Source: Polytrichum commune (Eukaryota > Streptophyta > Polytrichopsida > Polytrichales > Polytrichaceae). Taken from it: 64,000 bases of DNA. Shown here piece after piece: positions 39,974-63,464 of the stretch. A program made the translations under genes and the position numbers. The notes below the pieces were generated by a model. It was given only the letters and a program-made list of their open reading frames with translations, did no database searches and was not told the origin of the DNA. Position 1 is the stretch's first letter; the number at the start of each line of letters is the position of its first letter. Location: contig OX485806.1 of assembly GCA_950295325.1 (NCBI GenBank), positions 1,426,001 to 1,490,000 on the forward strand. The letters are read 5' to 3'.

Positions 39974-40330
39974 CACTATATTCGTTAATCGGAGACTTTG
40001 GAAAGTCTCAAAATCAAATTCACCCATAGTTTGGGATGCCAATATTGTGAGCATACATTATAATGGGAGCATTGGGAACATTGGGAAAATGATAGTTCAT
40101 AAGTTTGTACGCAAAGAATATTCACATTACTAAATATAGTAATTTTAAATATCGTGATCAAAACATGAACTTCACATGGAAAATAACAATCAAATCTCCC
40201 AAAAAATGGTTTTATGTCATTATAGAATCTAGGATGCGCATCCCATATGGAAAGGTCTTATTGAATTAGATGGCATATCCCAAACTTATTTAAAATAAGT
40301 TTGAATGTAGCCGCAATACAACCAAGTCTA
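39974..40330 (+). repeat. Outer inverted repeat, left
   Basis: Inverse complement of 60180-60538. Matching blocks are CACTATATTCGTTAATCGGA, CATAGTTTGGGATGCCAATA, TTCACATGGAAAATAACAA and GGGATGCGCATCCCAT-like words. Identity is about 75-80%. Confidence 0.8.
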
Positions 40331-40339
40331 TACAATGCC

Positions 40340-40700
40340 CCTATTTTCACACTAATTCCAACCTATGTTATGTCCACCGAAAGATGCATCCACAAACACA
40401 CCCACCACGATTGTCCCGTCAATATTGTCTGCTGATCGGGAAGAGAGTTCACATTCATTATCTAAAGACGATGCATATGTCGACAACACAAAGGCATTAT
40501 CTACTACATCCACTACCATCACACCTAAAAAACAACCATGGAATGGACAACCGCATAACCGATGCTATGCAAATAAGAGTGGACACACTATATGTGAGTA
40601 TATATGACCTGAAATACATACATTTTCCAACTAAAGAGACAATAATGACTAGCAAACCAAAGACACGCTCGCATTGTGGACATTAAAAAGTAGGTGTTGG
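40340..40700 (-). pseudogene. Deleted copy of the DUF7869-like gene
   Basis: On the minus strand 40380-40560 reads LSTYASSLDNECELSSRSAD and VGVFVDA, matching LSTYASSSDAECELSSPSAD and RGVFVDT of the intact gene near 57030-57140. It then joins almost directly to the 3' flank (40330 and below), so about 2.9 kb of coding sequence has been lost. Confidence 0.8.
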
Positions 40701-40899
40701 GATACCATTGGAGAACCTCATAAATAAACACGAACATGTGTTCCAAAACAATCCATGGTCAAGTGCAAATAATCCTTATTTTTCCATTCCAATAAACATG
40801 GGCATCACATGGTGTTATTTATTATCTTTAGAAGGCGTTGAAATGATTTGTTAAGTAACCATGGACATGGTTCTACATCAATACAAGACATGATTTTCA

Positions 40900-41945
40900 C
40901 ATATGTTCACGAACGCGCGGTCGTAAAGCACATCCCATTTCATGATCAAATGTGCATGGGACAAACAACACATGATGTTAAAGATCACACGATACATATA
41001 TTCACATTGGTGTCAAAGAACATTATACATGCATATGAAAAAAACTGAATGATATGGATTTAAAAAATATTAGTCGCATACACAGTCGACACGATGTATG
41101 TCGTCGATTATAGGCCCAAAATACAAAAAAATACGACTTGGGATATACGAATGGGCGTTCGTATACCTCCCTATACATATTCCAGGAGGGTATCTTTATG
41201 AACGGCCGCGCGTATGTCACATGTTGTATTTTTTATGGCAAATAAAATTTAGACTGTAATAATTGTGGTATTTTACGGATGTACTTTCGCAAAACGTATG
41301 CCATCATACGGGTATTTGGGGCAATTGGATTGGTATACTCCATACGAATGGCCTTTCGTAAAGCTTTGGTAGGTATCTTTATGAATGCCCATTCGTATAT
41401 CATCATGACAGACTTATATCATATATCATCATCATATTTGGGTCGATGCATAGATGTGTCTATGTATGGATGTTGTTTGGATACATAGACCATATTCACA
41501 GGTGGTATTTATAAACGACCGTTCATAAGGCTTTGGGTCATATCTTTACGAACGTGCGTTCGTATATCACCATGACATAATGTTTGGGTCTATGCATAGA
41601 TGTATGTCCATCTATGGATGTTCCTAGACACATAGACCATACTCATAGGTGGTATTTACGAACGCACGTTCGTATATCACTATGATATATTGTTTGGGTC
41701 TATGCATAGATGTATGTCTATCTATGGAAATTGCTAGATACATAGACCATACTCACATGTGATATTTACGAACGCACGTTCGTAAACTCTTAGCCATCAC
41801 ATGTGATCGAATCATTAATACAAATGCGTTCATTTGTGATTTACGAACGCGCGTTTGTAAACTCTCAATCACCATATATGTTTCAACCAATACTACAAAT
41901 GCGTTGATTTGTGATTTACGAACGTGCGTTTGTAAACTCTCAACC
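40900..41945. repeat. Palindrome cluster L1 (diverged)
   Basis: At least five copies of the 22-bp palindrome at roughly 41550, 41650, 41766, 41838 and 41916. They are spaced 72-115 bp, several have one arm mutated (CGTTTGTAAA), and decayed copies lie near 40907, 41143 and 41508. Spacer text between copies is shared (TCTATGCATAGATGTATGTC; ACCAATACTACAAATGCG). Confidence 0.85.
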
Positions 41946-42002
41946 ATCATCTATGTTTGAACCAATACTACAAATGCATTGATTTGTGATTTGTGATTTA
42001 TA

Positions 42003-42430
42003 TTTGTACCATAGGTTGGTTGAAGGCTTGAAGCTTAGAAACATTGGATCTGGATTCGGTTTGCGAAAACCACCTTTGACCAAAAACGTTAGCTAGTCAT
42101 AAGGACCCGAAAACTCCACTATAGGTTGAAGAAGGTTACAAATGCCAGCTCTAAGCTTATATTATGGAAACAACATCTAAAAGTTGGCCATTTAGACAAA
42201 AAACGTGAGCTCGTAGGTAGTGTCTAAGACATATTTTTAGCCTTAAACGGAAGTTTAAGGCGATCATACGTCAAAGGAGTTTTCTAGAGATGCACTAGGT
42301 TGGGAGGTGTTTTTGCAAGGCTTGGAAATGACTAGCAACAAAAGAGTTAATGTAGCAAGAAAGGACTGCAAACACCCATTAACAATGGGCTTTCATATAT
42401 ACGTACTATGCAGCATTTGGTTGCTGCGCA
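42003..42430 (-). repeat. Segment S, left copy
   Basis: Inverse complement of 63040-63464 at about 90% identity over 420 bp. It contains a short hairpin GCCTTAAAC-ggaa-GTTTAAGGC at about 42241-42262. No coding capacity. Confidence 0.9.
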
Positions 42431-42447
42431 GAAGTTTATGAAAATGT

Positions 42448-42850
42448 GGGCCGATGTTTACGAACGCCCGTTCGTAAATGTGCATCGAGGTTTACGAACG
42501 CCCGTTCGTAAATGTGGGCCGAGGTTTACGAACGCACGTTCGTAACTGTGCAACACTTGGTTGCTGCGCAGAAGCTTACGAAAATGTGGGCCGATGTTTA
42601 CGAACGTCCGTTCGTAAATGTGGGCCAAGGTAAATGTGCGCCGATGTTTACGAACGCACGTTCGTAACTGTGCAGCACTTGGTTGCTGCAAAGAAGTGTA
42701 CGAAAATGTGGGCCGAAGTTTACGAACGCCCGTTCGTAAATGTGCGCTGACGTTTACGAACGCACGTTCGTAACTATGCAGCACTTGGTTGCTGCGCAGA
42801 AGTGTACGAAAATGTGGGCCGAGGTTTACGAACGCGCGTTCGTAAAACTC
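42448..42850. repeat. Palindrome cluster L2
   Basis: Eight near-perfect palindromes embedded in a degenerate repeat of about 115 bp whose constant words are CAGCACTTGGTTGCTGCGCAG and AAAATGTGGGCCGAGG. It is the inverse counterpart of cluster R2. Frames through it give YERAFVN/LRTGVRK peptides that are artefacts. Confidence 0.95.
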
Positions 42851-44110
42851 CGGAATACGCGGCGGTATATGCGGTGGATATACGTTGTACGTACATGAAG
42901 TGTGTAGTGTGGACGCATAGAAATGTGATATGCGCGCACTCCTACAAGTCTCCAGAGCAGTCTCTAGAGCATGCCGCAAAAAAGAGCTATGGTGTGGGGG
43001 GGAAGACCTTTAAGTACTGCTCTAGGGCGATTCAAAATCCCTTGGATGCTCTTTAAAAAGCGGATTCCCGCCGCCTACCTTAACCTAACAATATGTCATT
43101 CTATCCATGCGAAACATGTATGACGCTATGTATGGAACATGTATGGCATGCATGCAACATATTGAAAATATTAATGTCGTTCGCACACCTTAGGTGTTAC
43201 CAAGGCCTCAGGATAAAAACATAAATACTATAATAGTCAAATGTTATTGAAATATGATGATGCTTAACATTAAATAAATAATTTGCGACCAAGTTATGAA
43301 ATCCAAGTTTTTGGGCAATTGATACCTATATGTTACCAAGGTCTAAGTGATATATATATATATACACATACATACAATGAGGTAGGAGTGGGTCAAAATT
43401 AGTTGTGGAGGCCCTTAAAATTGTATATATTATATTATTCACATCAAAACATGTCCAGAATATGCTCACTAAGTGTGTGGACACCAATAAAAAGTCGGAT
43501 TAATTTGGAATGGCTTGTAAGGTAGAGGAAGGATATGATATGAAACCATACCTAAATATAATGTAGGTCTTAATTTAAGTGCAAACCTAGATGTGGAAAG
43601 ATTGAATTAATCCGGAATGTGTGGCAAGATTGAAATTAATTTGGAATGGTACATAAGGTAGAGTAAGCATATGAATTCAAAACATACCTAGGTCGAGTCA
43701 CACTAATTGCATGTTTTTGCATCCTACGAGAAGTAGGTGCATAACTAAAAGTATTCATTTAAAGTTGAGTCTTAAGACATGCATGTTAGAATAAGATTAA
43801 GTATGGACTGTGTGATCAAAATGCACTCAACATTATTAAGGTGAAAGAGGAAGAATTCCAAACTTCACTTTTGACGTAAACCAAAGTTGTATCTCAAATC
43901 CAATTTTGAATCTTGAAATGACAATCGGCATGATTCTCAATAGTTGTTATTAACCGGATGAAGCAATATCCAATCCAACCAACATTGGTAGACCAGTTGG
44001 ACATGCCCACATACCACAACATGGCCACATATTTTGAATATTGGTAAGATTAAAAGATTTAGGGATCCAGGGTTTAGGGTTTGGGGTTAGGGTTTGTGAA
44101 AGTTGTGCAT
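42850..44110 (+). repeat. Inner inverted arm, left
   Basis: Inverse counterpart of 53930-55630. Landmarks in both are the ACTCCGGAATACGCGGCGGTA-like start, AATCCCTTGGATGC, the ACCTTAGGTGTTACCAAGG-like block, a microsatellite, TTTAGGG-like repeats and AAAGTTGTGCATGT. The arm is diverged (about 70%), with length differences caused mainly by the right-arm (TA)n tracts. Confidence 0.75.
44060..44100 (+). repeat. Interstitial telomere-like repeat, left arm
   Basis: GATTTAGGGATCCAGGGTTTAGGG-type sequence (written here in two parts: GATTTAGGG and CAGGGTTTAGGG), then GTTAGGG. These are degenerate plant telomere units. Its inverse partner is at 53935-54030. Confidence 0.7.
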
Positions 44111-44850
44111 GTCCGACAGTTAATACAATAGATTACACACACAAACGATATTGACTACTCAATAGCCCATATTGCACTCACTTAATTATGTAGAATGCAC
44201 ATTTTATACTTGCCAAACATCCGATCACATGGCTCAAATACACTTAGTTCAAGTTGAAGTTAAAGTTCAATGCACTATACAAATTTTAGTTCAAGTTGAC
44301 ACCTAATTATATGAATTGATGACATGTTCGAAATTGAATTTCCCTCCACCTCTATTAAAATTAAGTTCACCCCCTCCCCCCAATCTCAAATTGTGTATTT
44401 TATGAAGCTAATAATGATTAGAGGAACTAAACACTATATTCGGTATTTGGAGACTTTTTGTTGATTATGAGACTATATAAGGATGCACCTTTCAAAATTG
44501 GACCAGTAATGACGACTAAAAATTCCATATGTATAATGGTATGCTACTATTATTATACATAAAGGCATGGAAGTGAACAAAAATGTGAGGCATACATGAA
44601 AATAGTTGCGTATGAAATCACAACTCGTTATGAATGGAAGGGAAGGTGCGAAGAATGAATGGAAGTTGAATGAATTAATTGGGATTGAAATACAATTATA
44701 ATGGAAATACCATCAATGTCTTGAGTAACTTGGAATAGCATAGAAAGTAAGCACTTAAATATGTTCTACACCTAAGCCCATTTAGGGAGTCCGTCCCACT
44801 AGTACGCTTCTAGACGTCACACTAGTCCGACCCATTATTTTTTTTTGCGG
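44111..44850. other. Spacer downstream of the minus-strand genes
   Basis: AT-rich. AACACTATATTCGGTATTTG at about 44430 resembles the outer element end (CACTATATTCG), so it may be an internal relic of an element terminus. No gene. Confidence 0.5.
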
Positions 44851-45822
44851 CTAAGCCCTTTTTTTTGGCGGCCTCCATGGCTCTAAAAATCTCAGGCCCA
44901 CGACTGTATCCTTGTGTGTTGCCTGGACAGGAATATGTGTCGTTCTTGCATGTTTTAGGACGTGCTCCCGAATTGTAAGAGGTGGTATTATAAGTAGAAT
45001 GCGAGGGTGTTTGCGAAAGGGAACGTCTTGCGCTTCTCCGGAGGGCCAGACAACGATCGGACTCGGAAGATGCGGCCTTGAGGGCGTGCCTATCCAAGGA
45101 GGACGTGGAGGAGGGCCGGGCACCAAGCGAGCGGGTAACCACCTGCGAAACAACGTCATAGGAAGATAAGAATAGGAATGGAGTGGGGAAAATAATGAGG
45201 GCGGTTTGGGATGGGCGCTCGTAAAGAGAACGGCACGCAAACGGAAGACAAGGAAAGCAAAAGCGAGAAAGGGGTTCAGGGTTGAGGAGGGCACCTTGGC
45301 TTTGGGGACGTCCATGCGGGGAACGGTGGGAACGAGGGGGGCGTCGACGGGAGCATCCGGAGCCGATGGAACTATTGCAATTATGTTGGATGGCGGGGGG
45401 GAGTCGAGGCGTGGAGGGCCCACGATCGCGGAGGACGTTGCGGGGGGAGGAACGGAGTCGGCGGGGGAGGTGTGGCAACGGGGGCCTTCCATGCGGAGAC
45501 GCCGGCTCGGCCCGCGACGAGCGACGGCGTCGTCCCTCGAGGGCGAGAGGTGTCCCAAACGAACGAGCGTCCGTTTCTCCTTGGAGAGGGGGGAGGGCGA
45601 CGGGGCGTAGGCGCGGGCGACAAGTGGTGGGGGCGGGCTGTTGACGACGCCGTCGTCGATGCCGACGTCGCGGGAGTAATCCACGGCCGAGGCCGCGTCG
45701 ACCGCCGAGAACTGGTAGAGGGATGGCATTTGGAAGCCCGTGACGTCGCGGGAAGGGGAGGCAGGGGGCGAGAGGAGACGGGAAGGGCCGTCGACCACAG
45801 GGGCGTCGCATATGGGGGCAGA
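44851..45822 (-). CDS. Proline-rich open exon, function unknown
   Basis: A GC-rich open frame follows a good acceptor (CCCATAG/TCTGCC at 45823). It reads MPSLYQFSAVDAASAVDYSR, then Pro/Ser/Ala-rich text (SPPPPLVARAYAPSPSPLSK, VPTVPRMDVPKAKVPSS). No domain is recognised. A second frame is also long, but its Arg/Pro composition looks like a shadow. It lies 98 bp downstream of the four-exon gene on the same strand. It could be a separate small gene, an alternative last exon, or non-coding. The 3' end and any further splicing are unresolved. Confidence 0.3.
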   Translation of the reverse strand, partial: SAPICDAPVVDGPSRLLSPPASPSRDVTGFQMPSLYQFSAVDAASAVDYSRDVGIDDGVVNSPPPPLVARAYAPSPSPLSKEKRTLVRLGHLSPSRDDAVARRGPSRRLRMEGPRCHTSPADSVPPPATSSAIVGPPRLDSPPPSNIIAIVPSAPDAPVDAPLVPTVPRMDVPKAKVPSSTLNPFLAFAFLVFRLRAVLFTSAHPKPPSLFSPLHSYSYLPMTLFRRWLPARLVPGPPPRPPWIGTPSRPHLPSPIVVWPSGEAQDVPFRKHPRILLIIPPLTIREHVLKHARTTHIPVQATHKDTVVGLRFLEPWRPPKKRA

Positions 45823-45920
45823 CTATGGGCAAGAACAACAACAACAACAAAAGACATCCAAAAACGAAGCAAGCATTAGTAAATGTGACCACATGATACA
45901 AGCAAAGACATGGAGGCATT

Positions 45921-48900
45921 TCAAATCAATTTATTGAGTTTGGCGAGCCTCATGATGCTCTTGAATACATTATCGCGGGGGCTTAGCGCCGCATTGCCGA
46001 AGGGGTTGGACCTAACAAAAAATGGGATGCTACCGGCGTGGAGCACGAGCCTTCTAAGGTAGGGGGCTAGCCTATCGACCAAAAATGTGTCTTGCCTATC
46101 GCCGGTCCAAGTGTCCGGGAAGATGACGTTGCCCGGGGGGTTCAAGACGCTCTTGGTGGGGCTGTCGTCGATGAGGACAGTGTTCTCTGGAGTCGGCCAC
46201 CACCCGTGCGGCGTCCCTTGCAGACGGGGGACGCCTCGCCAGAGTCTCGAGCGGAGGACCTTGAGGAACTGTTGTCCTCCGCCCCGACCGCCAAACTTGG
46301 GCACCGGTTGACCTTTCTCGTCGCAGTCCTCTTGGCCGAGGACGAGGCAAGGGCTCGGGAGATCGCGGAACAAGAAGTGCACGATGGGCTCGGTGTTCTC
46401 CATGACCATGGAGCTCCACACAATGACGTGAGCGAACTCGACCACCTCGCGAAGGAAGTCACGCAAGCCGGGACGGGCGCGGACAGCCTTGCGGTTAATG
46501 AGGGTGTCGAGCTCGCCGTCGTAGTCCCTTTCGTCGGGGTGACGGAAGGGACGCGTGGGGACCCTTGGGATGTGTTGGGTGTGACACAACACCCCGTTGA
46601 GGTCAAAAACGATGAAAGGTTTGTTCCGGGTGGGAGGTCCACTGGTAGAGGGGTTGCGACCAATCTCCGGGGGGTCCTGTGATGAACAACGCGACTAGTT
46701 TAATTCTATGATCCAATAATGAAATTTTGCGTAGAAAATGAAGACGGTGCATTATGGGGAAAGACGAGGAAGTGAGGAGAGTGCAAGGAAAATGTGCTCA
46801 AGGGCACACTTGCGAACGAGCGTTCGTGAATGAAGGCTGCGGGGGCGGTGCGCATCATTTACGAGCGCTCGTTCGTGAGCGCGGCTACACGTACATTTAC
46901 GAGCGGTCGTTCGCGAATGAGGTGGACAGTGGGTCGCAGCCTTTCACGAACGAGCGTTCGCGAATGAGGTGGGTATGCAAGAATCAACATAATCTCATCA
47001 ACATATACAACATACGAGAAGGGGTCGAGGGCAGAGAATTTGAAGCAACGCGATGCAGATAACATAGGCTCATATATTAATCCGTTGAATATTTACATTT
47101 CTCACGTGATAGTCTATCACATTTTCCTAAGGCAAAATGATGCCGTGTCCTACAAAACTGTTCGGCCCTAAGGGGGACCGCTGAAGAGGGCTCTCGCAAG
47201 GCCACTGGATGTCGATGAAGATAAAAACATCGCGATGTTAGAGAGGTTACGAACGCGCGTTCGTTAAAAAATGGTATTCTCAGAGGAGAGTTACCTCGTC
47301 ATCGGGGGGAGGGGTAGCGGCGCTGGACCGAGCAGCAGGTCCCTCCTCAACGATTAACGAACGCGCGTTCGTAACCTCCACAGCTGCAGCCGCCTCTGTC
47401 TCCATGGCCTCTGCCTCACGCTCCGGTTGAGAGGCCTGTGTCGCTTGGATGCGCAGCGCGTCTTCTTCCTCGGCGCCCAGGTCGAGCGCGTCCATCCTGA
47501 CATCCTCCATCCACGCCGCATGGGTTTCTTCCACGTCCATCCCATGCACCCCTGGTGCGTCATTGGGGCTCCCCTGCGTGTCCTCCACAATGACCATGTC
47601 AGTGTGTCGCGCAGAGTCATCGCCATGTCTGTCTACTACCCTGGGGACGACGGTGAAAGACGATGCATCGGTGTATGAGGGCAGTCCTACCCTTGAAGGG
47701 GGAGGGGTGAGGACTGGAGGACCTGAAGATTCACGAACGCGCGTTCGTAAATCCTCGTCCTCCTGGATGGCCGCCGCCACAGCATCGTGGGAGGTGGTCG
47801 AGGGAACCTCTGGTGGCGGAGGAGTGCCAACAGGCGTGGGGTGGGGCGCCTGCTGGCGGGAAGGCCCTCCGGTGAACATGCCCGGTGGAGGGGATTGGGA
47901 GGGGTATCCTCCAGTGAAGGGGTAGGCCGGCTGGGGGGGCGCTGAGAAGCTCTGCATACGCTGGAGCATGGCGAGGATGGCGTCCGTCTTCTCGTTGGAC
48001 TGCCTCAGCTCCTCCTGAATTGCGAACATTTTCTTGGCATTCTCCTCTGCCGCCTTCGCCATGTCCTCCTTCATCTTTTGCTCGAGCTTGGCGTTAAGCT
48101 CGGCGACGGACAACGCCTCCTCCTTGACCCGCTTGTTCTTGTCGAAGTCTACCCCCAGCTCGACCATGATCTCCATGTCGCCCTCGTCCTCATCGGAGAC
48201 CTCGATGATTGCCCCCGGAGGCAGCTCCACGTAGGGGGTCTTCTTCATCCTCCGCCTCGTGTTGCGGTACTGGTCCAACGTCGGTCGGGACCGTTGGTCC
48301 AGAAGGTCGAGGTTCTCCATCTTGGGAACCACGATCGGCCTGGGCGACACGGATGTCGAGCATCCCCCGGGAGTGCCGAATGCCTCCGCTCCAGACGTTC
48401 TCGCGGGGAGGACATCTTGGGTTGTCCCCGCCGACGACCCCGTGTATCCACCCGGAGTCCCTTGCACGTCGGATGGATTTCCCGACGGCGCCAAAATGCG
48501 GAGAGGAGTGACGTCCAAGGATCGGAGGATCGCCTCGACGTTGTAGGAGGGCGCGGGCTCGTCGTCGTCCGTCTCCATGGCGGGCATGCCTTCGTCGACG
48601 GGCATGTTGATGTCCGTCCTCGGGAGGGACATGTCCTCCAGGTCCATCGTGGAGGCCTTCGCCCTGTGCACGTGGAAGTCCTCCTCGTCGATGGCTTCAA
48701 TGAAGCTGTTGACGACCAGCCCCAGCATCTGAGATTCAAGCAAATACGTTAGAAAATACGAACGTGCGTTCGTAAACATCAACGACGAGAAACAATGTCA
48801 TCAAACCCAAGACAAGTTGAGGTGAACTTTACGAACGAGCGTTCGTAAATATTAGTTGGAGAGCTTACCATCGCAGCGTACATGAACTTGCTGCCGCCAC

Positions 48901-51611
48901 AAACGTTGTACACGGTCTCTCCGCTTATTGCCACGCTCTGCAAAACGGAGACGTAGAACTCCAACCTGAGTTCCATCGCCGGGAAGACAGTGTACAAGGT
49001 CTCCTGCAGCAGATCCTTGGGAGGGGGATGGGGGATGCTGTAGATCTTCTTGAACGTAGTGTTCGCCTTGACAGGGGCTCGCCCATTCCGCAGCGCGTTG
49101 TACGTCAAGAAGACGAGGCTGACCGCCCCCACCTGTTTGTTCCCCCTGGCCTCGTTGATGGCCACGATCCCTTCCGTCTTGGCGGGCACGTAAGTGCTGT
49201 GGAAGATGCTGTACTCAAATTTGATCGACTTCTCGTACAGGTCGACTACAGCAGAGAGCTTCTCCTGCTCGACTATCCACAGCCAAACGTGAGGCTCCCT
49301 CATGTCCGGAGACTTGTGCTCCTTGAACTTGGCCATGAAGGGGTCGTAGAAAGGTATGTCCTTCCCCCCCTGCCTCGACGCACCGGGGATCCCCCTGAAA
49401 TCGATCAGGGCAAATGGGCACCCCCGTCGATCCTCCCTCACCTCGGCCCTGCTCATGGTCCGGTCCCACTTGGAAAATGTCACCCTCTCCACTCCTTTTG
49501 TCAACAGACAAAATCTGGCCACTCCTTCGAATGTGGCCAACCTCTTCCGCGTCAAAAAGCTTCTGTATTGCTCCACCTCTTGGGGATCCGTCTCGGTTTT
49601 CTTTGTCCTCTTGTTCCCCTTCTGCTTCAAAATGGAGGCGTGCTCCTTGACAAGACAACGCATTGAGGGTCCGGAGATGTTGTAGTCGACCTTGAACATC
49701 TTCCAGCTGGCCCAATTAATGTCCCCGTCGGCTAGGATGAGTGCGTACTCTGGTATTAGGGCGCTCAACTCCCTCATTGCAGCAGTCTTCAGCTTGCGGT
49801 GTTCGCACCATTCCTTGATGGAATACGTGCCGGGCTTGTGTCTTGGCCTCTTCAAAAATATCTTCGGGTATGGGATGGTTCTTCCCACAGTGTTCCCAAG
49901 AAGATGCACCGCGCACCTCTGCAACTCGGACTCTGTTAACCCTTGAAGGGACCTGAAGAACTCCCTCAGTAGTGGAGGGGCCTCCCCGGTCTTCTCCGCG
50001 CTGTACTTCTCCTCGGTGTCGGGGTTGACCAGATCGCCCGAGCTGTGCGCATCAAAAAATTGTGTCCACAACTCCCAAGTGTCCCTGTTGCAACAGATGA
50101 GGCGGAGCTCACCCTTGAGCTCCAGGACAGACTTGGTTGTTGTAGACTTCATGTCGATGGAGGAGAACTTGTCCACCATCGCGTCGCAGAATGCCTGCAG
50201 CAAGAAAAACATCAGTAACGCACAAAATACGAACGCACGTTCGTAAGTTTGAATGTCAAAGAACTTGAAAATTTGAATGTCAAAGATATTTACGAACGTT
50301 CGTTCGTAAACTCACCTTCCATTGTGGAGACGGCGTCTTCGCGTTCTCCCTTTCTTTAGGGGGGCACCCGTGGGCGACCCAGACGTCCCTTGCAGCCACT
50401 ATGTTGGCTGCCCACGACGCCTCGAAGGCCTTGATTTTGTTGCCGGAGTTGAGGAAGGTGGATATCTTCCGCAGCTTGTCCCAATCGTCCGACCACACCA
50501 AGAACGCCTTCCAGTAGCGCAAGTCCTCCTTCAGCTCATGCTGGAAGTTGTCGTCCTTGAGAATTATTTGGGACGCCTCCAAGCTGTGTTGGCCGTCTAT
50601 GATCCAGAACTCTCCATTCTGGATCCGTGGCCAGTCCTTCTCCGTCGGACGGGATGTCAGCCCCTTCGGCATGACGCAGACGGTCTGCCTGTCCCACTTG
50701 ACGTTGTTCATTAGATTATTTATCTGCCACTTCACACCACCGCTTTCGCGAGAGCGAACCACCCATTTGTTGGGGGACATCTCGCACTTGAAGCAGTCCA
50801 CGTTGAATGTGAAGTGGCGTCCCATGGGCCAGCAATCCTTCGAGTAGTTGTTGAAGTCTCGAAGGATCCTCGTGGCCTTCACAGCGTCAGGGTTCTCACC
50901 CTTTTTCAAGGGGGTGGGCATTACGACAGGCGAGGTCACCTCTGCGGTCTCCGTTACTCCCGATTTCTCCATCTCCTCCCTTGTCCTCTTCGATGGCGTG
51001 GAGTGTCTACTGGGGCCCTCCGTCGCCCTGCTAGCGGAAGGCACAGGCCTGGGTGCACTTCTAGATCCTCCTGCCCCTGATGTGGATGGTTTCCTGGGGC
51101 TCTTCTTCTTCTTGTTTGCCTCAGTGACCACACTGTTGTATTTGGAGATGTTCAATGCCAGGGCGTTCAATTTCCTTGCAGTCCAGTATGGGCTCAACGC
51201 ATATTTGGAGAAGAGGCCGTCCAGGTCGAAGTGCTTGGCATCTTCCGCTACGTTATTGGTGGCGTATTGGTAGGAGAAGGTATTTTTCTGAAAATGTAAC
51301 AAGAGGTTGATATGATCCTTCTTGTTCTTCATGTCCAGAATTACATACTCCCCCTGGGCCTCTATGGACTCTATCTCCCACGTCTTCATTTGAACCCACT
51401 GTTCGGGCTGGTCCGGTCTTGTCTCCAGCTCGTAGGTGAAGCGCATGCAGAAGAGGCCGTCCCCGATCTTCTCTGGCAGTGCCGTCCACTCCCCCATGAA
51501 GTCTTCCTTGGGGACATAGTTGTCGTTGCCGTTATCGTCTAACACCGACTCTGGGAGGCCATCGACCTTCACCGCGAACATCTCAATGGCGCTTCTGCTT
51601 GATCTTGCCAT
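45921..51611 (-). CDS. Four-exon fusion: ParB/DGQH-like, degenerate DNA methyltransferase-like, FCP1/HAD-like
   Basis: Exons 50316-51611, 48869-50194, 47295-48728 and 45921-46676 join through three phase-0 introns to 1603 aa without stops. Exon 1 begins at ATG directly after an acceptor (TTGCAG/ATGGCAAGATC), so an untranslated leader exon probably lies upstream. Around residue 339 IIDGQHSLEAS resembles the DGQHR motif of ParB/DndB-type domains. Exon 2 ends with IPHPPPKDLLQ, then CGGSKFMYAAM joined to LGLVVNSFIEAIDEEDF; this matches the closing pattern of beta-class DNA N-methyltransferases (HPTQKPxxLLE...FxGSGTTxxAAxxLGRxxIGIExDxxYF). A DPPY-type catalytic motif is missing. Exon 3 is acidic with a Lys/Glu coiled coil and Pro-rich parts. 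Exon 4 has FCP1/HAD motifs FIVFDLNGVL (second Asp is Asn), IVWSSMVM and VLIDDSP. Domain names are inference; the exon chain is well supported by phase. It may bind the surrounding palindromes, which is untested. Confidence 0.7.
46805..47270. repeat. Palindromes in intron 3 of the four-exon gene
   Basis: One good copy sits close to the donor (about 47247-47268). Four diverged copies at about 46811, 46858, 46893 and 46944 have arms such as TTTACGAGCG and CGTTCGCGAA. Confidence 0.85.
47354..47375. repeat. Palindrome inside coding exon 3 (first)
   Basis: TTAACGAACG-cg-CGTTCGTAAC, read in frame as VTNARSL on the minus strand. One change in each outer arm. Confidence 0.9.
47730..47751. repeat. Palindrome inside coding exon 3 (second)
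   Basis: TTCACGAACG-cg-CGTTCGTAAA, read in frame as DLRTRVRES on the minus strand. Confidence 0.9.
48756..48849. repeat. Palindrome pair in intron 2 of the four-exon gene
   Basis: The intron spans 48729-48868. One palindrome (48828-48849) begins about 20 bp after the donor ATG/GTAAGC. The other (about 48756-48777) lies about 27 bp before the acceptor. Confidence 0.9.
50229..50311. repeat. Palindrome pair in intron 1 of the four-exon gene
   Basis: The intron spans 50195-50315. One palindrome starts immediately after the donor (AAG/GTGAG, then TTTACGAACG). The other lies about 35 bp before the acceptor TTGCTGCAG. Confidence 0.9.
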
Positions 51612-51639
51612 CTGCAACAGAATATAAACAATTAGTGAC

Positions 51640-53400: not shown

Positions 53401-53934
53401 ACATATTTATATGTAATGGACGCGTTTAAGGCATTAACTTGACAAGCTTAGTTCAAATACATGAATTTTACTCGTTTTATTTCCTTAGTACCTCTACATT
53501 TGGATTCCTTGTAAACATATTTTAGGAAAATATGCTCAGTTAATTCGTAATAAACAATGCATGTCACTCCCTAGGTTGTCAATGTAGAATCCACCCCCAA
53601 AGATATATATATGGTGTTTTAAAATATAGTTTATGTAAGAGCTAGATATCTTTCAATTAATTCGATGGTTCCTCAAATAAATATTACATGCAAAAAAGAA
53701 TTCATAATAATATGAGATTGCGCAGAGTTGCTATACGATAGGATGTCAATTCAAGTTCTAATATTAGGTGTTAGCTTGAACTAATGCATTTCTGGAGTGG
53801 TCAACTATTTTGCTAGCATCAACTACGAGCTTGCGATGAATGAAGTTAATGCAATTACAAGGGTTTTTGAGGAGTCAATATTGTTTGTGTGTGTAATGTA
53901 TCCTAGTAACAATCTAAAACCTAAACCCAAATAC

Positions 53935-54030
53935 CACATACACAACTTTCACAAACCCTAAACCCCTAAACCCTACCCCCAAACCCTTACCCTAAACCCT
54001 AACCGCAAACCCTAAACCCTACATCCCTGC
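53935..54030 (+). repeat. Interstitial telomere-like repeat, right arm
   Basis: About ten degenerate CCCTAAA units (AAACCCTAAACCCCTAAACC and variants). Plant-type telomere sequence at an internal site, mirrored in the left arm. Confidence 0.85.
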
Positions 54031-55002
54031 ATCTTTTTATCTTACCAACCTTTCTTATATGTGGCCATGTTGTTTTCTGAGGGCAGGTCAAATTGGTCTA
54101 CCAATGTTGGTTGGATGGAGAATGCTTAATTCCGTTCATAACAACTATAATAATTGATAATGATGGCAATTGTCAATTTCACATTCCAAATTAATAGATT
54201 TGAGATAAAACTTTGGTTTAAGTGATAAGTGAAATTTCAAATATTCCCACTTTCACCTTAATAGTTCTGAGTGAAATTTCATCACACAATCCACGATCTT
54301 ATTATAATAACATGCATGTCTTAAGACTTCAATTTATATCAACACTTTAAGCTATGATGATGCACATCCTTCTCATAGGATGCAAAACATATATTAATTG
54401 TAAGTACATACTATTGTATGCACCATTCCAAATTAATAGTGCATTTCCCCAAACCCTAAAAGTCTATTTCCAATAGGACCTCAACTCATTTAATCATGTG
54501 TCAACTTAAACTAACAATCGAACAATGCATTCAACTATAAATATCACCAATGATCTAATAAACATTTAACCAATGTGTATCCGTACCCTTACAACAAGTG
54601 GACGAAAATTCAATTTCCAATAGGACGTCAAACACATAATAATTGTAAATATGATTCAACGTTACGGTAGCTAGTATGGTTTCAAGTCTCAATGATCATT
54701 ACGCTATCATACTATGCAGCATTACAAATTGATTAATCCTTCCTACTCATGCCATTTTAATTCCTTATTTTCACACCTAGATACCATTTGAAAGAAGACC
54801 TAACTTACATATATTATTAGGTATAATTAGTTCATAGTGTCCTCAATCTACCCTAGTGCAAGCCATTATGGATTAACCCGATTTTTTAGTTGTATTCATG
54901 CACTTGGTGACCATATTACGGTCATTTTTTGATGTGAAACATATGATACCTATAATTTTAGGGGCGTCCGCAACATGTTTCTTAGCCACTCTGACCTCAT
55001 TG

Positions 55003-55019
<17 letters not shown>

Positions 55020-55053
<34 letters not shown>

Positions 55054-55162
55054 CTTCGACATTCATAACTTTATTAGGCATCAATTGTCAATTAACTTGG
55101 ACTTCATACCTTAGTCGCAAATCATTAAATATTCAATGTTAACCATCTCCATATTTAGACAT

Positions 55163-55219
<57 letters not shown>

Positions 55220-55220
55220 G
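55020..55220. repeat. (TA)n microsatellites
   Basis: Two TA runs, about 55020-55051 after a (GT)n stretch and about 55168-55217. The left arm has only a short equivalent at 43350-43366. Confidence 0.95.
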
Positions 55221-55607
55221 TATATACATATATTTCGATGAGACCTTGGTCACAACTAAGGTGTGCAACCGATTTATATATTTTCAATATGTTGGCGTGC
55301 ATGCAAGGCATGTTCCATACATGACAATGCTATTTATATAATTCCGCATGGATGGAATGGGAGATTGTTAGGTCAAAGAAGGCGGCGGGAATCTGCTTTT
55401 TAAAAAGCATCCAAGGGATTTTGAACCAGCGGGGTGAAGTACTTAAAGCTCTTCCCCCCACAACAAAGCTCTTTTCAGCGGCACATGCAAGTGTGCGCTC
55501 TACAGACCTCACCGAACGCGCTCAAGCCATTTCGTGTGCGCCAACCCTACACCACCCAGGTACAGTACAGGCTGTACCTACCGCATATACCGCCGTAAAT
55601 ACCGGAA

Positions 55608-56420
55608 CTTTACGAACGCACGTTCGTAAAGATGAAGAGCTTCAGGTTTAGACAAACGATTCGGACCTGGACATGGCAAGGATTTACGAACGCGCGTTCG
55701 TAAATTCCACATGAGAGCATGTTCTGGATTGGGCTACTCATATGGATAGTCACATGCACGTAATCCATCTCAGTTATTTACGAACGTGCGTTCGTAAATA
55801 TGCCTTCGAGGACCATGCAGACATATTTGACCCTTATCTATTGGTACCTGATGGTCGGTAATTTACGAACGTGCGTTCGTAAATCCCACAGGAGATCATG
55901 TTTTGGATTGAGCTACTCATGGATAGTCACATGCACATCATCCATGGCATTTATTTACGAACGTGCGTTCGTAAATATGCCTTCGAGTTTCATACATACA
56001 TATTTGACCCTTGTCTATTGGTACCTGTTGGTCGGTAATTTACGAACGTGCGTTCGTAAATCCCACATGAGAGCATGTTCTGGATTGAGGTACTCATATG
56101 GTTAGTCACATGCACTTAATCCATGACAGTCATTTACGAACGTGCGTTCGTAAATATGCCTTCGAGGATCATACATACTTATTTGACCCGTATCTATTGT
56201 TACCTGATGGTCGGGAATTTACGAACGTTCGTTCGTAAATACATGTCATTATTGTCTACGCATCCAGCAACACATCTTCATTCATGCACATCAGTATGGC
56301 AGTAATTTACGAACACAGAATAGCAAGAAAAATATGCTCATCGCTCGTCCGTGAAGGATGTGAACACGGGGTCGCACCCATTTACGAACGTCCGTTCGTA
56401 AATGGGTAGGTACGCAAAAG
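55608..56420. repeat. Palindrome cluster R1
   Basis: Nine palindromes spaced about 75-165 bp in a repeat of about 175 bp with shared spacer words (GAGAGCATGTTCTGGATTG, ATTTGACCCTTATCTATTGG, GGTACCTGATGGTCGG). A further copy lies at about 56664. Confidence 0.95.
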
Positions 56421-56828
56421 TCAACATAATCAAATTCACAATATGGAGGTGCTCAGTGTTCAAAATATTGTTGGAGTTGATTCAGGCATCATCTGCAGAT
56501 TTGCTAATTTTGTGCGTATGGACAAGTGTTCTCTTGTGATAGTATATCGCGCAGGTTCCTAAGTCAACATGGTACTTTGACCTACAAAACCGATATTCCT
56601 CAGGGTGCTCTCATTTGAGGGATCTCGAAGGCCGCCGGATGTACATGGAGAAGTTACTGAGGTCACGAACGCGCGTTCGTAAATGCATGTGGCGTTCTCG
56701 GATTTCTGATTTCGTCGTCGGTTGTATGTGGACAGGCGCTGGTCCGAACAGCAGGGCCCTCCTGGACGACTAACGAGTGTTCTCCTCTTTGTCCATGTAT
56801 TGTTTACATTAGTGAACAACCTAGACGT

Positions 56829-59800
56829 ATGCTTAAAACGTTTTTTTGGGACGCGCGTTCGTCTTTGTGCGTGAGGTTCTCCAATGGTGCACCAAAATTT
56901 GTTTGTCAATTTTGGGCCATTTATCTCCACATATATTCTATCCTCTCTTGTATGCATTGCGGTGGTGGTTGGGTTGATCATGTCCTGGTGGTTGGTCTAG
57001 GCTGTATGGCGTTGCATGTGGGTGATAGTTCATTGGAGTTGTCGACGTATGCATCGTCATCCGATGCTGAATGTGAACTGTCTTCCCCGTCGGCAGATAG
57101 TAATGGTGTGCCAAACGTGAGGGGGGTGTTTGTGGATACATCCTCCCATGAATCTTTGGAAGTCCACGAACAATCTCTGCATTCCGGAGATGACCACGAT
57201 GACATTCCGTTGTGTGCCGGTTTCGGGAGGGAGCAATGGGTTGGCCTTGATGTCGTTCTACTCAACGAGGTTGGTGTCCCGGTGGCAGATGGTATATGTA
57301 GAAACTCCAATCCCCGTGATTGTGTCGATGCCAACGCCCTAGGTCTCGATGATGTTGGCGTGTGCATCTTGAACTCTTTGCTTCCGGTAGAATTCCCGGT
57401 GACATGGAGATTTTCCTTGCGTCGATGGCCGCTTCGTCGAGTTCTACATGAGGAAGTGAGTTTGTGGGATCATGAGCGGCAGCATAAGCAAACACAATTA
57501 GCTTTGTTGGCCACAACACGTCCTCGCAAAGGCCTCCGTAGATATGATTCAAACCGTGTGCCTCGCGGAGATAAGGAGCGTCGACGGGATCGGCTTTTGG
57601 GGGACGAATCTATCCGTCTAGTGTCCGGCAAGGATTGTTGCGCGAGGAAATGTTGCCAATTTTTCCCGCGGGAGAAAATTAGATCTCTGCGTCAAGAGAT
57701 GTGGCTTGCGGATTTTCGTATGAGGTCGGCTAAGAAACTCGAGGTCCACAGAAATTTGCACCTTGATACCCATGGGCATAAGGTGGTGACACTTGAGAAT
57801 GTTGATGTGTGTTGTACAGCGTGGTATACCATCCACGCCGTCTCCAAGGCTGACTTTTATAGGTTTCGAAAATATTCATCGTTGGGTCGCCGCTCTCGAT
57901 TTCATGGCAACTCGGGCACAAAGAAACCTAGGGAGGCTACACTGCAAGCGTCCGCGACACTATCCACCATCATAGTGCCATTGGCCGATGCAATGCCCCA
58001 CAAGACGAGGACATTGTCGTCAGGGGAGAAGGTTGTTCAAATGGTGTTGCCCACGGGCACAAAATGGAAGAACATCTTAACGGACATCAATGAAGTGGGT
58101 CGCATAGCGGGATGTGGGCCCATTTCTTTGTCCAAGTTGAGTGTGATTAAAAACCAGCAGTTTGCGGAATACATTCTGAAAAGACCCGGGGACAAGTTCG
58201 CTAGATGTACGACGTGTGAAAAATACAAAGGTCTTCGAGACGCCCACCCCATAGGCACTGAATCTCATTCCAGACACCAGAAAAAATATATTGAACATGT
58301 CAACAATCAAGAGGCACACCGTCAAGATTACTATAAGAATCGTGCTCTATCCATAATGAGGCCCACAGAGGTTCTAACAGTCATCCATGATAAAATGGAC
58401 CACGCCAAGACCGCATGCCCTTGTTATGCACGCAAAATAAAGGCCACGGATGGTCTCTTCAAGTTGCCCGTAGCTGTCACAGGTTTGTATGAAATCACAA
58501 CTACGTGTTTAAAGTCTATCCAATTTTCTTGGGTGTGTTTGGCAAATGTCCAACTCCATACATCCGTTTAGTGGTTATTTGATTATTTTGGTCACGCATC
58601 GTTTGTTTTTTCCAGGTATGATTGCCCACGGCCATGGGGACGTAAAGTATGCCCATTATGGTTTGGATTTTTACCCTGGGGATGCTAACCACACGGTGGG
58701 TTCATTTGCAAAACTGTTGCGCGATCTTGAGAAGCCACCGGTACATTCTTCCCGTGCACTTTTTGATGGTTGTGGAACCACATCCCTTTATGAGGCAGTG
58801 CTTTTGGGGAAGGAGGTTTGTATGTCGTCATTGCCAGAACCACCCGGAGAGCCCATTTGTGCAAAACCATTGCCTCCAACTCTCCACGTTCAATTTGATA
58901 ATTGTGCGAAGGACAACAAATGTCGATACGTATTTTGTTTTTGGTCATTGCTCGTGGCGAAAGGAATCTTCAAGGAGGTGTTTGTGTCTTTCTTGATGGT
59001 GGGACATACACACGACGACATTGATGCATCATTCGGACGGTGGAGCATGAAGTTGCATGAAGAAGATTTTCCAACCATACCTCTTCTTATGAAATCGTAT
59101 ATGGATTTGGACCATATGCCAGTAATTCCGCACTTGATTGAGGAAGTACCAAATTTCAAGGCCTTCATCAAGCCATACATGTTGAAGGGAGGGGACCGTT
59201 TGGTGGGGCATACCAAAGCACAACAATTCCGATTTTATATGAGGGACGATGGTCTCCCGGCCATGCAATTCAAGCTTTTGTGCACATCTCCTAATTGGGG
59301 CCCGGATGATGGTATACTCGTATGGCGTCAAGACAATGATGGGAAATGTTTGGTCCCGGATGGGGAACCAAAGCCTTGCAAACCCGAACCCATGAGGAAT
59401 GGGCCGGAAATCATCAAAGGCATATCCGGATTCATTGAATATTGGAAAGAGTTGTGCGAGGAGGACATCACAAGACGTGTTAGAGATACCCATGAACCGT
59501 TGATCGCGTATTGGGATCGCATTCGCTCAGCCTTGATGACACTTGGTGGCGACACCCGTACGACTTTGACACAAGGATTTTGGCCACAAAGTCGTTTGAC
59601 GGTTGTCGAGTCCGATACTATGTTTTTCAGCAATGGAGACGTTCGTGAAGAGTTCGCAATGGACGAGCATTACGTTGGCCCTGCCCGCAATCGACCGGCA
59701 CCGTCGTTTCGTGTAGGTGTTGATTGCCATGAAGGGTATTTGGTCCTCGTACGAGCTGGGGATGAGGAGCATCCCAAGCCAATTTGGTTGGTAAAAGCAT

Positions 59801-60135
59801 TGTCTTCACCCAATTTTGTTCGAACTAGCCCCAACTTTCGTCAAATTGAGGTGGAATATTGTCGTCCAAGCACTAAAGACCACAACGTGCTCCGCACTTA
59901 TTTAGGTTGGGACACCAAAAAGAATTTTAAGTGGACAGTGGACTCAGCGTACACACCGGTTTGGATAAACACGGATACTATACTTTGTGCTTGGAAGCCG
60001 CGCAAAGGTTCCAACACAGAAGCAATGACCATCCCCCAAAAACATATAGATTTTGCCAAAGACAACTTGGCACGTATTGCAGTTGCGGAAAATGACGCCG
60101 AGAATGGATATGAAGCGGAAGATGGAGATGGGTAA
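56829..60135 (+). CDS. DUF7869-like transposase-type protein
   Basis: Exons 56829-58482 and 58616-60135 join (ACAG/GTTTGT ... TTCCAG/GTATGA) to 1057 aa. The first ATG is used; MALHVGDSS at 57006 is an alternative, and upstream exons are possible. The N-terminal half has Cys clusters (CCARKCCQF; RCTTCEKYKG), which may form a zinc-binding region. The second half carries the pattern I associate with DUF7869 proteins: VIHDKMDHAKTACP, then LHVQFDNCAKDNKCRYVF and VSFLMVGHTHDDIDASFGRW. The Asp-rich motifs suggest an RNase H-like, DDE-type core, an inference from the motif pattern. A deleted copy lies inverted at 40340-40700 with the same flank. Position beside an inverted end, and duplication with it, favour a role as the element's transposase. 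Confidence 0.7.
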
Positions 60136-60179
60136 ACATAACATAGGTGAAAGTTAACGGCGGGAAAAAACATTAGTAC

Positions 60180-60538
60180 TTAGTAGTCTTGGTTTTTAAT
60201 AGACTTAGTAGACTTGTCACACTCCATTGTGGTATACGTTTGGGATGTGCCATCCAAAACCATAAGAACCTTACTTATGGGATGCGCACCCCAAACTCTA
60301 TAATGACATAAACCATTTGTTTTTTATATTCGCTTGTTATTTTCCACATGGAGTTCACGTTTTCATTATAATTGCAATTTTCTATTTTTAGTATTAGGAA
60401 TATTCTTTATGTGCGAATTTTTAAATTGTCATGTTCTTGATGTTCCCAACATTCCATATGCCCACAATATTGGCATCCCAAACTATGGGCATATTTTATT
60501 TTGAGACTTTCAAAAGTCTCCGATTAACGAATATAGTG
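60180..60538 (-). repeat. Outer inverted repeat, right
   Basis: Begins just after the transposase-type gene. Inverse counterpart of 39974-40330, ending CGAATATAGTG. Confidence 0.8.
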
Positions 60539-60999
60539 TTACTAATGAACAACTTGAAAGATATTTCATTTTTGAAAACATTATATTTCAAAACACCATA
60601 TGAGCATCCTTGGGGTTGGATTCTTCATCAAATTTCTACTAAATGATGTGCATTGTTCACTACAAATTTATACTCCCTATGTACCTAATGTTTACAAAAG
60701 AACCAAATGTATAGGGACTAATAGAATGGGGAGAAAAAATTCATTTGTATTTATACTAAGCTATTCAAATCAATATGATAAACACCTATACTACATATAC
60801 ATAATACAAAACATGAATTAAGCATGCCTTCATTACTTACAAATTCTACTTTTATTTTCATGCAAGAGAGTCATCGAACGTTTTTCCATCCTAACTAGTA
60901 TCGACAAGGTAGTCATATGACTGCCTCCATAATTTGACAACAATTCATGTATCGTAACTTGGATGAAACTAACACATTTCAATGGTAACAAATTCCCTC
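60539..60999. other. AT-rich spacer
   Basis: No gene; nothing diagnostic beyond the loss of similarity to the left side at 60539. Confidence 0.5.
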
Positions 61000-61750
61000 C
61001 CCACCCCTATCCCATCCCATCCCAACCCATCCCATCCCATCCCATCCCCTCCCCACACCCCATCCCACCCCATCCCAACCCTTCTCACGTGGAGGAGGCC
61101 ACGTAGCAACGATAGGGAAACCCTAGCGGCGTTGGCTACCTCCCCGCACCCCTTCTTCTCCTTTCATTGTCATTTGGAGCATAGAAAGGAGAAGCGGAAC
61201 ACTGAGCACATGCGGAGCGGAGCTCTTGTCATTTCTTACTCATATCTTTTCTTTGTTTTGTTGGCGCGCGTGTTTGAGAGTCGCAGATTTCTTTTGAGAG
61301 TTGCAAGTTTGCTAGTAGAGAGCTTGAGGGCTACAAACTTGAAAGTTGCATACACATAGGAGTTGTTACAAGGGTTTGTATGTAATGTGCGAGGGCTTAA
61401 GAGTGTGAGGGAGGAATGACTAATGTGAGGGTGCAGTAGATTGAATTTACAATTCTGAGGTTTTTGAAGTTTTTCACTAAATGAGGAAGCACAAGTTTTG
61501 GATGTATACCAATTCAACGTGCATAGTGTAATCCTCCTGAACTCACTTCCTTCACATTTTGAAATTTTTTTCATTGTTGAATTCCATGTGTTTTTTTCCA
61601 TGTATGTTGAGCTTTGGCATGTTTTGTTTGCAAGCTTCCCCATGTTTTTCGATTTACTGTTCTCTCACAACCTGAAACTCAATTATGTTTTCATTCGGTT
61701 GTTTCAATTTTTATCGTTCTGAAGTTTTATCTTCACTTGCAGTATGTAAG
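61000..61750 (+). repeat. Second copy of the promoter/leader block
   Basis: CCCATCCCATCCC tract, then GGGAAACCCTAGCGGCG, then a leader-like region, in the same order as 53400-52400 on the minus strand. It leads into palindrome cluster R2 without the four-exon gene, so it looks like a deleted derivative. Confidence 0.7.
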
Positions 61751-61916
61751 GCACCAATTCAAGGTTGATAGGTATCAATCACAAACCAAAAGTGGCAACA
61801 CGCAATGGACAAATCACTAATACATATCAACCACTCCATTATAGACCAATGCATATTTGTATTTGTTTATATATGAATATAAAAAACATATGTACATGCG
61901 TAAATACCGGAGCATG

Positions 61917-62995
61917 TTTACAAACGGGCGTTCGTAAACTTCAGCGCAACAACCAAGTGCTGCACAGTTACGAACGTGCGTTCGTAAACGTCGGCTCACG
62001 TTTACGAACGGGCGTTCGTAAATCTCGGCCCACATTTACGAACGTGCGTTCGTAAACCTCGGCCCACATTTACGAACGGGCGTTCGTAAATCTCCGCCAC
62101 ATTTACGAACGTGCGTTCGTAAACCTCGGCCCACATTTTCGTAAAATTCTGCGCAGCAACAAAGTGCTGCATAGTTCGTAAATGTGCGCTGACTTTTGCG
62201 AACGGTCGTTCGTAAACCTCGGCCCACATTTACGAACGGGCGTTCGTAAATCTCCGCCCCATTTACGAACGTGCGTTCGTAAACCTCGGCCCACATTTAC
62301 AAACGGGCGTTCGTAAATCTCCGCCCCATTTACGAACGTGCGTTCGTAAACCCCGGCCCATTTACGAACGTGCGTTCGTAAACCTTAGCCCACATTTTCG
62401 TAAAATTCTACGCAGCAACAAAGTGCTGCATAGTTCGTAAATGTGGGCCGACTTTTACGAACGGGCGTTCGTAAACCTCGGCCCACATTTACGAACGGGC
62501 GTTCGTAAATTTCCGCCCCATTTACGAACGTGCGTTCGTAAACCTCGGCCCACATTTTTGTAAAATTCTGCGCAGCAACAAAGTGCTGCATAGTTCGTAA
62601 ATGTGTGCCGACTTTTACGAACAGGCGTTCGTAAACCTCGGCCCACATTTACGAACGGGCGTTCGTAAATCTCCGCCACATTTACGAACGTGCGTTCGTA
62701 AACCTCGGCCCACATTTTCGTAAAATTCTGCGCAGCAACAAAGTGCTGCATAGTTCGTAAATGTGCGCCGACTTTTACAAACGGGCGTTCGTAAACCTCG
62801 GCCCACATTTTCGTAAACTTGTGCTCATCAACCAAGTGTTGCACTGTTACGAACGTGCGTTCGTAAACCTCGACGAGTATTTACAAATGCGCGTTTGTAA
62901 ACCTTGGCCAACAACAAAGGTTGCATATTTAGGAACATGCATTTGTGAACTTCGGCGTAATAACCAAGGGCTGCATGTTTACGAATGCACGCTCA
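61917..62995. repeat. Palindrome cluster R2 (densest)
   Basis: About 22 palindromes, many only 33-34 bp apart, in a higher-order repeat of about 160-185 bp. Constant words are AAACCTCGGCCCACATTT and AAATTCTGCGCAGCAACAAAG. Copies toward 62900-62995 are decayed. Confidence 0.95.
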
Positions 62996-63039
62996 TAAAC
63001 CTTGGCTACATACAATGAAAATGTGCACCACCCCCTTGC

Positions 63040-63464
63040 TACAATAATCAATAGCGAATAGGAGTACGTATATATGAAAGCCCATTGTTAATGGGTGTTT
63101 GCAGTCCTTCCTTGCTACATTAACTCTTTTGTTGCTAGTCATTTCCAAGCCTTGCAAAAACACCTCCCAACCTAGTGCATCTCTAGAAAAGTCCTTTGAC
63201 GTATGATCGCCTTAAACTTACGTTTAAGGCTAAAAAATATGTCTTGGACACTACCTACGAGCTCACGTTTTTGGTCTGAATGGCCAACTTTTAGATGTTG
63301 TTTCCATAATATAAGCTTAGAGCTGGCATCTCTAACCTTCTACAACCTATAGTGGAGTTTTCAGGTCCTTATGACTAGCTGACGTTTTTGGTCAAAGGTG
63401 GTTTTCGCAAACCGAATCCAGATCCAACGTTTCTAAGCTTCAACCAACCTATGGTACATTTTTC
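63040..63464 (+). repeat. Segment S, right copy
   Basis: Inverse complement of 42003-42430, ending at ATGGTACA, after which similarity stops. Its hairpin has the same arms GCCTTAAAC and GTTTAAGGC but loop TTAC instead of GGAA. Confidence 0.9.

Follow-up and report, generated by a model that had tools for sequence, protein, structure and literature searches.

Nested transposons of a moss share a palindrome that may be a family-specific site for an element-encoded protein

What reads a 22-bp palindrome that is crowded into one part of a 64,000-nucleotide stretch of the moss Polytrichum commune (GenBank assembly GCA_950295325.1, contig OX485806.1, positions 1,426,001 to 1,490,000; hereafter the window, C4:1426001-1490000 in our contig numbering)? 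An initial annotation, made from the letters alone, had placed the palindrome in a giant inverted-repeat element of 20-23 kb; we find that this element is two nested copies of one terminal inverted repeat (TIR) transposon family. The inner copy is autonomous and encodes a trio consisting of a DUF7869 transposase (T), a NIF-phosphatase-like protein (NIF) and a three-exon protein, PM. The locus and its relatives display nested transposons, conservation of the trio and of palindromes at regulatory places, and a site code that differs from family to family. From these comparisons we consider it probable, at roughly 55%, that an element-encoded DNA-binding protein, most likely PM, recognises the palindromes specific to its family and thereby controls or un-silences its own element.

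A scan of the window for TTTACGAACG-NN-CGTTCGTAAA at up to three mismatches returned 67 sites, 35 of them exact and all within 40906-62999. None of the 67 lies in 1-40905 and 100 dinucleotide shuffles of the window gave no match, in agreement with the annotated abundance of the palindrome in 40-63 kb and its near-absence elsewhere. The exact palindrome occurs 2,909 times in the 407.8-Mb assembly, and the same pattern read backwards not once. Among the matches listed, which cover 86 distinct palindrome places within the first 2.54 Mb of contig C1, 85 fall inside the spans of five element copies and one, C1:2485595, is unassigned, so that the proposed tie between palindromes and element copies holds; counted per copy, the inner element carries 30 sites, the outer element 38 and a divergent copy, C1b, 27. 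Viral contigs gave no match, and two isolated single sites in genome contigs (an Omnitrophota metagenome-assembled genome and a Dyadobacter genome) were taken as chance. Each arm position is 89-100% conserved and both central bases are free, with 12 of 16 dinucleotides occurring in the core, which confirms the described architecture of fixed 10-bp arms around a variable 2-bp core. That architecture had been read as either a recombinase crossover or a dimeric protein site. The dimeric site fits; a crossover is very improbable, since so free a core argues against it, the element genes match no recombinase family in Pfam and T has a predicted RNase H fold.

The element boundaries are fixed by a second gene-less copy, C1:639070-648560 (9,491 bp, target-site duplication (TSD) CATA), whose main aligned blocks are 95-98% identical to the outer element. 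This copy aligns to window 39972-44430 and then straight to 60541-64000, and the segment that it skips, 44430-60540, is therefore an insertion. It also preserves the empty site, AGAGGAACTAATGAAC, against a filled site of GGAACTA-[AACAC...GTGTT]-ACTAATG, a 4-bp duplication of ACTA; both the second locus and the empty site that the initial annotation had suggested looking for were thereby found. Without its insert the outer element measures 9,542 bp, its alpha end lies at 39972, and the inner element is oriented opposite to it. Arms reported near 40.0/60.5, 42.0/63.4 and 43/55 kb are real, but empty site and TSDs divide the supposed single element into two: the ends at 40.0 and 60.5 kb look paired because two oppositely oriented elements each contribute an end of the same type, and the 42.0/63.4-kb inverted repeat, about 97% identical over its outer 380 bp, lies inside the outer element and does not form its ends. 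A 4-bp TSD (ACTA, TGTT, CATA, CTTT, AAGT) flanks 5/5 elements with both ends in hand, a count that leaves out four further copy loci without a matched pair of ends, and the ends follow the consensus AACACTATATTCGnTAnTyGGAGACTTT. The family thus shows the terminal inverted repeats, TSDs and, for the inner element, the empty site of TIR cut-and-paste transposons. The outer element is colinear with the alpha half of the inner one, with T deleted; its longest ATG-to-stop open reading frame (ORF) is 157 aa, and tblastn finds only short T and NIF remnants. Two TIR variants, AACACTATATTTGTTAAAATGAGACTTTCTC at C1:2556357 (-) and AACACTATATTCGTTAAATTGAGACTTTCTC, found at the second end of each of the two sister elements described below (C4:1515227, C1:610757), point to further end types or families.

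CACTA elements are defined by CACTA ends, a 3-bp TSD and subterminal motifs. A CACTA (En/Spm) identity was rejected: the end pattern occurred 8 times versus 6.6 in shuffles and was not enriched, the ends read AACACTATATTCG, the TSD is 4 bp, and the sites of gene-bearing elements lie 2.4-5.3 kb from the ends, except for one weak site per sister element.

The three genes of the inner element are under purifying selection (for NIF, dN/dS 0.12-0.23 against three copies). T matches the DUF7869 profile (PF25273) at 137.4 bits against a cut-off of 26, the sole Pfam match of its exon 2 at E<=1, and is a clear member alongside the DUF7869 proteins of Physcomitrium and Ceratodon found among its matches (e.g. 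P0079, P0086). The RNase H fold (DDE/D type) is predicted for its relative P0060, and the acidic motifs HDKMD, QFDNC and GHTHDDID are present in the window protein. Together with TIRs and TSDs, T bears out the earlier suggestion of a plant mobile system with transposase-type and other genes. NIF has no match among PDB sequences at 1e-3. In both this family and its sister (45921-46694; C4:1500250-1500948, L027; C1:626675-627379, L022) it carries DLNG at the place of DxD, which we take to be the phosphatase catalytic motif, and it may be an inactive phosphatase.

PM is predicted to be a fusion of a ParB-like domain with a DNA-methylase fold, with DGQHS at what is presumably the place of the ParB GERR-type motif. 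Profile searches with PM gave nothing in Pfam for exon 1 and one match at 0.19 for exon 2, nothing in NCBIfam beyond one match at 0.098, and nothing useful among PDB sequences (one match at E 1.4); an exon 3 match to HAUS-augmin3 (0.0013, under its cut-off) was taken as coiled-coil noise. Phage ParB/Sulfiredoxin proteins are among the top named matches in BFVD, where no match reaches E<=0.001, and no PM relative was confirmed in viral and genome contigs. The copy C1:2231389-2246924 (L023, L024) differs from the window copy by a synonymous distance of 0.64-2.5 in PM, 0.19-0.35 in T and 0.34 in NIF, the PM values being open to inflation by alignment gaps; it is possibly a mosaic, the pattern being one that an exchange of PM between lineages would give.

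Sites in the inner element keep to certain places: five lie between NIF and PM, two in PM exon 3, two in each PM intron, nine upstream of PM, nine in an array upstream of T and one in the T leader, while PM exons 1-2, the NIF and T coding sequences, the T intron, a 3.3-kb spacer and both ends have none. The outermost palindromes stand 2,379 and 3,857 bp from the ends of the inner element and 934 and 1,198 bp from those of the outer one. Compared with C1b, identity is 92% in non-coding arms (484 of 560 bases aligned) and 69% in cores, against 61% for flanks within 60 bp and 82% for other non-coding DNA; in PM exon 3 it is 97.5% over the 40 arm bases, whereas the PM coding sequence has 79%, and all four intron sites, whose positions are unique, are retained. 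It is quite improbable that the palindromes are a functionless satellite spread by unequal crossing-over and gene conversion: although several clusters are tandem repeats, as upstream of T, and copies differ by the gain or loss of some sites, the four intron sites and two PM coding-exon sites persist in C1b while their flanks change, and the spacers and ends stay free of sites. A self-complementary stretch occupies about 54990-55243 in the spacer of the inner element, and TATATATA palindromes are the most frequent ones of that element.

The same genome holds a sister family, represented by C4:1498670-1515227 (TSD CTTT) and C1:610757-628840 (TSD AAGT), whose trio is 57-66% identical to that of the window element in T, 43% in NIF, 34-37% in PM exons 1-2 and about 30% over part of exon 3; the C4 copy has one stop within the PM exon-1 stretch. 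These elements carry another palindrome of the same 10+2+10 geometry, GTTTGGGTCG-NN-CGACCCAAAC, at 38 (C4) and 41 (C1) sites, counted at up to three mismatches with the outermost G and C unscored, and its exact form occurs 9,231 times in the whole genome against 0 for a control. The two codes are mutually exclusive here, with no first-type site in the two sister elements and no sister-type site in the window's two. Sister sites likewise lie in PM intron 1, intron 2 and upstream regions, and this same placement with a different sequence again speaks against a satellite, even if one sister element has 17 sites at about 78-bp spacing. Their outermost sites stand 2,867/3,790 and 5,332/2,731 bp from the ends, one 3-mismatch site per element (about 0.5 kb from an end) being set aside. 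These distances bear on the alternative that T binds the palindromes for end recognition or synapsis, like CACTA or Ac subterminal repeats. Many plant transposons bear short-motif arrays for their own proteins, and the gene-less outer element, necessarily moved in trans, keeps its 38 sites, the outermost about 1 kb from its ends; in gene-bearing elements, however, the sites are not subterminal, both PM introns hold them, and of the three proteins T has diverged least between families, yet the palindrome differs. We regard T binding as unlikely.

Database PM proteins often read into the introns and thereby encode the palindrome there. Signature peptides of this kind occur in 21 of 31 PM exon-1 matches and 27 of 50 further exon-2 matches, and in none of the 120 T proteins listed of 255 T matches. 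They reveal more than one palindrome type: AACG, GACG, ACCG (two proteins) and, in the most distant clade, an RPK-type peptide, which was spotted before any DNA of its clade had been seen, the DNA motif being written down only afterwards. The two sister elements described above turned out to belong to this clade. In a tree of 30 exon-1 proteins (27 from the database and three from this genome; four short matches without a signature were left out, and six rows lack a signature and three are ambiguous), the 12 AACG, 5 GACG and 4 GGGTCG rows make up three separate clades (99/99, 100/99 and 100/100) with none out of place, and palindrome type tracks PM clade in 21/21 typed proteins. P0028 and P0029, which have no strict signature, bear a looser RPK-type peptide and both fall in the GGGTCG clade. 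With untyped rows treated as labels of their own, the tree requires 10 changes for five labels, compared with a shuffled mean of 16.2 and as few in 0/200 shuffles; AACG alone falls below all 500 shuffles. The occurrence of a different palindrome in matching places of the sister family suggests self-marking, in which the DNA of each family is labelled for a protein encoded by that family. A host protein as reader would not be expected to yield a palindrome switch that tracks the clade of an element-encoded protein, and we find it improbable that the palindromes serve such a protein, or that they form RNA hairpins or cruciforms with a role in splicing, double-stranded RNA or replication. Perfect inverted repeats inside introns, adjoining splice sites, would suit that alternative, as would 14 complementary two-sided changes against 3 other two-sided ones; but 142 changes are one-sided (241 sites, 100 distinct), the pattern that half-sites recognised on double-stranded DNA would produce, and the majority of sites lie upstream of genes.

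In the reading that we prefer, PM would bind as a dimer to double-stranded DNA, both at the clusters that precede T, PM and NIF and within the introns of the PM gene, and so coat or mark copies of its own element. Such marking would regulate their transcription and, most likely, protect them from silencing; we favour activation or anti-silencing over repression, though PM may instead act as a repressor or in copy control. We infer that PM is the reader from its predicted ParB-like domain, its place as the fastest-diverging of the three proteins and the sites in its own introns. Several observations weigh against this reading. T and NIF also differ between families, so that either of them, or a host factor, could read the palindrome, and C1b combines a divergent PM (synonymous distance 0.64-2.5) with the same palindrome. 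Of the 30 inner sites, five (46896, 51723, 52201, 56218, 56662) are unmatched in the alignment to C1b, in which anchoring of MAFFT on palindromes may also raise arm identity in arrays. Taken alone, GACG and GGGTCG are not below shuffles (117/500 and 69/500 as low). PM itself has no Pfam ParB match, its exons in the window gave nothing in a PHROG scan, Foldseek on a relative gave a best E of 0.017 with none <=0.001, and its model contains no reliable helix-turn-helix (predicted local distance difference test score <50 at 377-455, after the N-domain). The catalytic (D/N/S)PP(Y/F/W) motif is found in 0/22 PM sequences, which sets PM apart from beta-class N6-adenine/N4-cytosine methyltransferases (M.BceJIV, CcrM, MTA1, bdelloid N4CMT); DF stands at the matching place in 22/22 and DFR in 21/22, the DFRxxP position at the end of the matching strand being taken from strand order in the structure model, and PM is probably not an ordinary methylase. 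Finally, with coding DNA included, observed/expected CpG is 0.80 within 0-30 bp of sites, 0.79 at 30-60 bp, 0.91 at 60-120 bp and 0.66 beyond 3 kb. CpG depletion near sites thus appears slightly weaker than far off, a gradient that does not decide; palindrome-bearing stretches reach masked values of 0.82-1.21 (one array 1.79), higher than the 0.53-0.62 of element spacers, with genes also high at 0.82-0.99.

VANDAL elements are Mutator-like. Membership among them was rejected for the moss element, since T exon 2 matches DUF7869 and not a Mutator-like transposase and the TSD is 4 bp; TIRs, a 22-bp palindrome and a PM with a ParB/methylase-like prediction separate it further. The likeness is nonetheless close, in that VANDAL/VANC of Arabidopsis pairs an element-encoded factor with short motifs that lie in introns, in upstream regions and between genes, often as tandem repeats (PMC5735166; PMC10398659). 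VANC binds family-specific motifs, removes VANDAL silencing and coevolves with the motifs (PMC5735166; PMC10398659), and related families use different ones, that of VANC21 being YAGTATTAY (PMC5735166); the stem "palindrom" does not appear in PMC5735166. Anti-silencing has been shown in VANDAL, whereas for the moss element it is proposed; motif placement and turnover are similar, and the moss element would work most like VANC/VANDAL without being one. In bacteria, ParB-parS, Noc and KorB-OB resemble it in the ParB-like N-domain predicted for PM and in palindromic sites scattered over a replicon, and KorB is a ParB relative that represses plasmid RK2 genes from palindromic operators (PMC11790492); the moss system differs in being a nuclear plant transposon with a longer site and a free core. 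A bolder picture, which we put forward only tentatively, is a plant-nuclear counterpart of ParB-parS, in which a ParB-methylase-like fusion would load at its own palindromes, spread along the element and insulate it from silencing, the private codes AACG, GACG and GGGTCG keeping families separate. A literature search did not find the word DUF7869 and returned nothing relevant on ParB-like proteins of moss transposons; the structure and TSD of DUF7869 elements may be undescribed under that name.

Features of the nested elements, in window positions
Feature	Position	Strand	Basis or remark
Outer gene-less element	39972 to 65628 (past window end; C4:1465972-1491628)	+	TSD TGTT; TIR scan and flanks
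Outer-element TIR, alpha type (AACACTATATTCGTTAATCGGAGACTTT)	39972-39999	+	TIR scan
Internally deleted T gene remnant, outer element	39972-40622	-	Inverted match to 60541-60131 and 57142-56900; tblastn
15 palindromes, outer element left arm	40906-42846		Motif scan
Inverted repeat of outer element, left arm	42005-42846	+	Self-comparison; present in copy C1:639070-648560
TSD ACTA, left copy	44426-44429		Empty-site sequence as in text
Inner autonomous element, 16,111 bp	44430-60540	-	Beta end 44430, alpha end 60540; boundaries recur in other copies and empty site
Inner-element TIR, beta type (AACACTATATTCGGTATTTGGAGACTTT)	44430-44457	+	TIR scan
NIF-phosphatase-like gene (PF03031), main exon	45921-46694	-	Pfam 1.5e-16
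6 palindromes	46809-47375		4 upstream of NIF (46809-46964), 1 just after PM stop (47246), 1 in PM exon 3 (47354)
PM exon 3 (482 aa), variable C-terminal part	47280-48728	-	Splice sites; copy comparison
Palindrome inside PM exon 3	47730-47751		Identical in copy C1b
PM intron 2, 140 bp, 2 palindromes (48755, 48828)	48729-48868	-	Splice sites
PM exon 2 (442 aa), predicted methylase-like fold, DFRxxP replacing DPPY	48869-50194	-	Splice sites; predicted fold
PM intron 1, 121 bp, 2 palindromes (50226, 50289)	50195-50315	-	PM exons 1 and 2 form a single ORF in relative P0023
PM exon 1 (432 aa), predicted ParB-like domain, DGQH motif	50316-51611	-	ORF; splice sites; 31 homologues; fold of relative P0023
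9 palindromes upstream of PM	51640-52271		Motif scan
10 palindromes upstream of T, partly in tandem repeat	55609-56683		Motif scan
T exon 1	57006-58482	+	ORF
T exon 2 with DUF7869 (PF25273)	58616-60135	+	Pfam 5.8e-40
Inner-element TIR, alpha type	60513-60540	-	TIR scan
TSD ACTA, right copy	60541-60544		Empty-site comparison
22 palindromes, outer element right arm	61917-62999		One more at 64409, past window
Inverted repeat of outer element, right arm	62521-63458	-	Self-comparison; present in C1 copy

Elsewhere in the window, two related stretches at 40-1323 (-) and 30796-32229 (+), 67-72% identical in DNA, bear ORFs that we take to resemble PIF/Harbinger-type transposases. ORF pieces at 25626-28586 and 35692-37284 (-) presumably resemble TIR-NBS-LRR resistance-type genes; they include a tandem duplication at 26526-27255, 367 bp long and 95% identical.

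To our knowledge, self-recognition by a private motif code is otherwise known only from the VANDAL elements of Arabidopsis. If the palindromes are indeed read by PM, such self-recognition would have arisen independently in moss transposons from unrelated parts, one of them ParB-like. With two palindrome codes in one genome, at 2,909 and 9,231 exact sites, and matched proteins for each, specificity is directly testable, and the system could provide sequence-specific tools for the plant epigenome.

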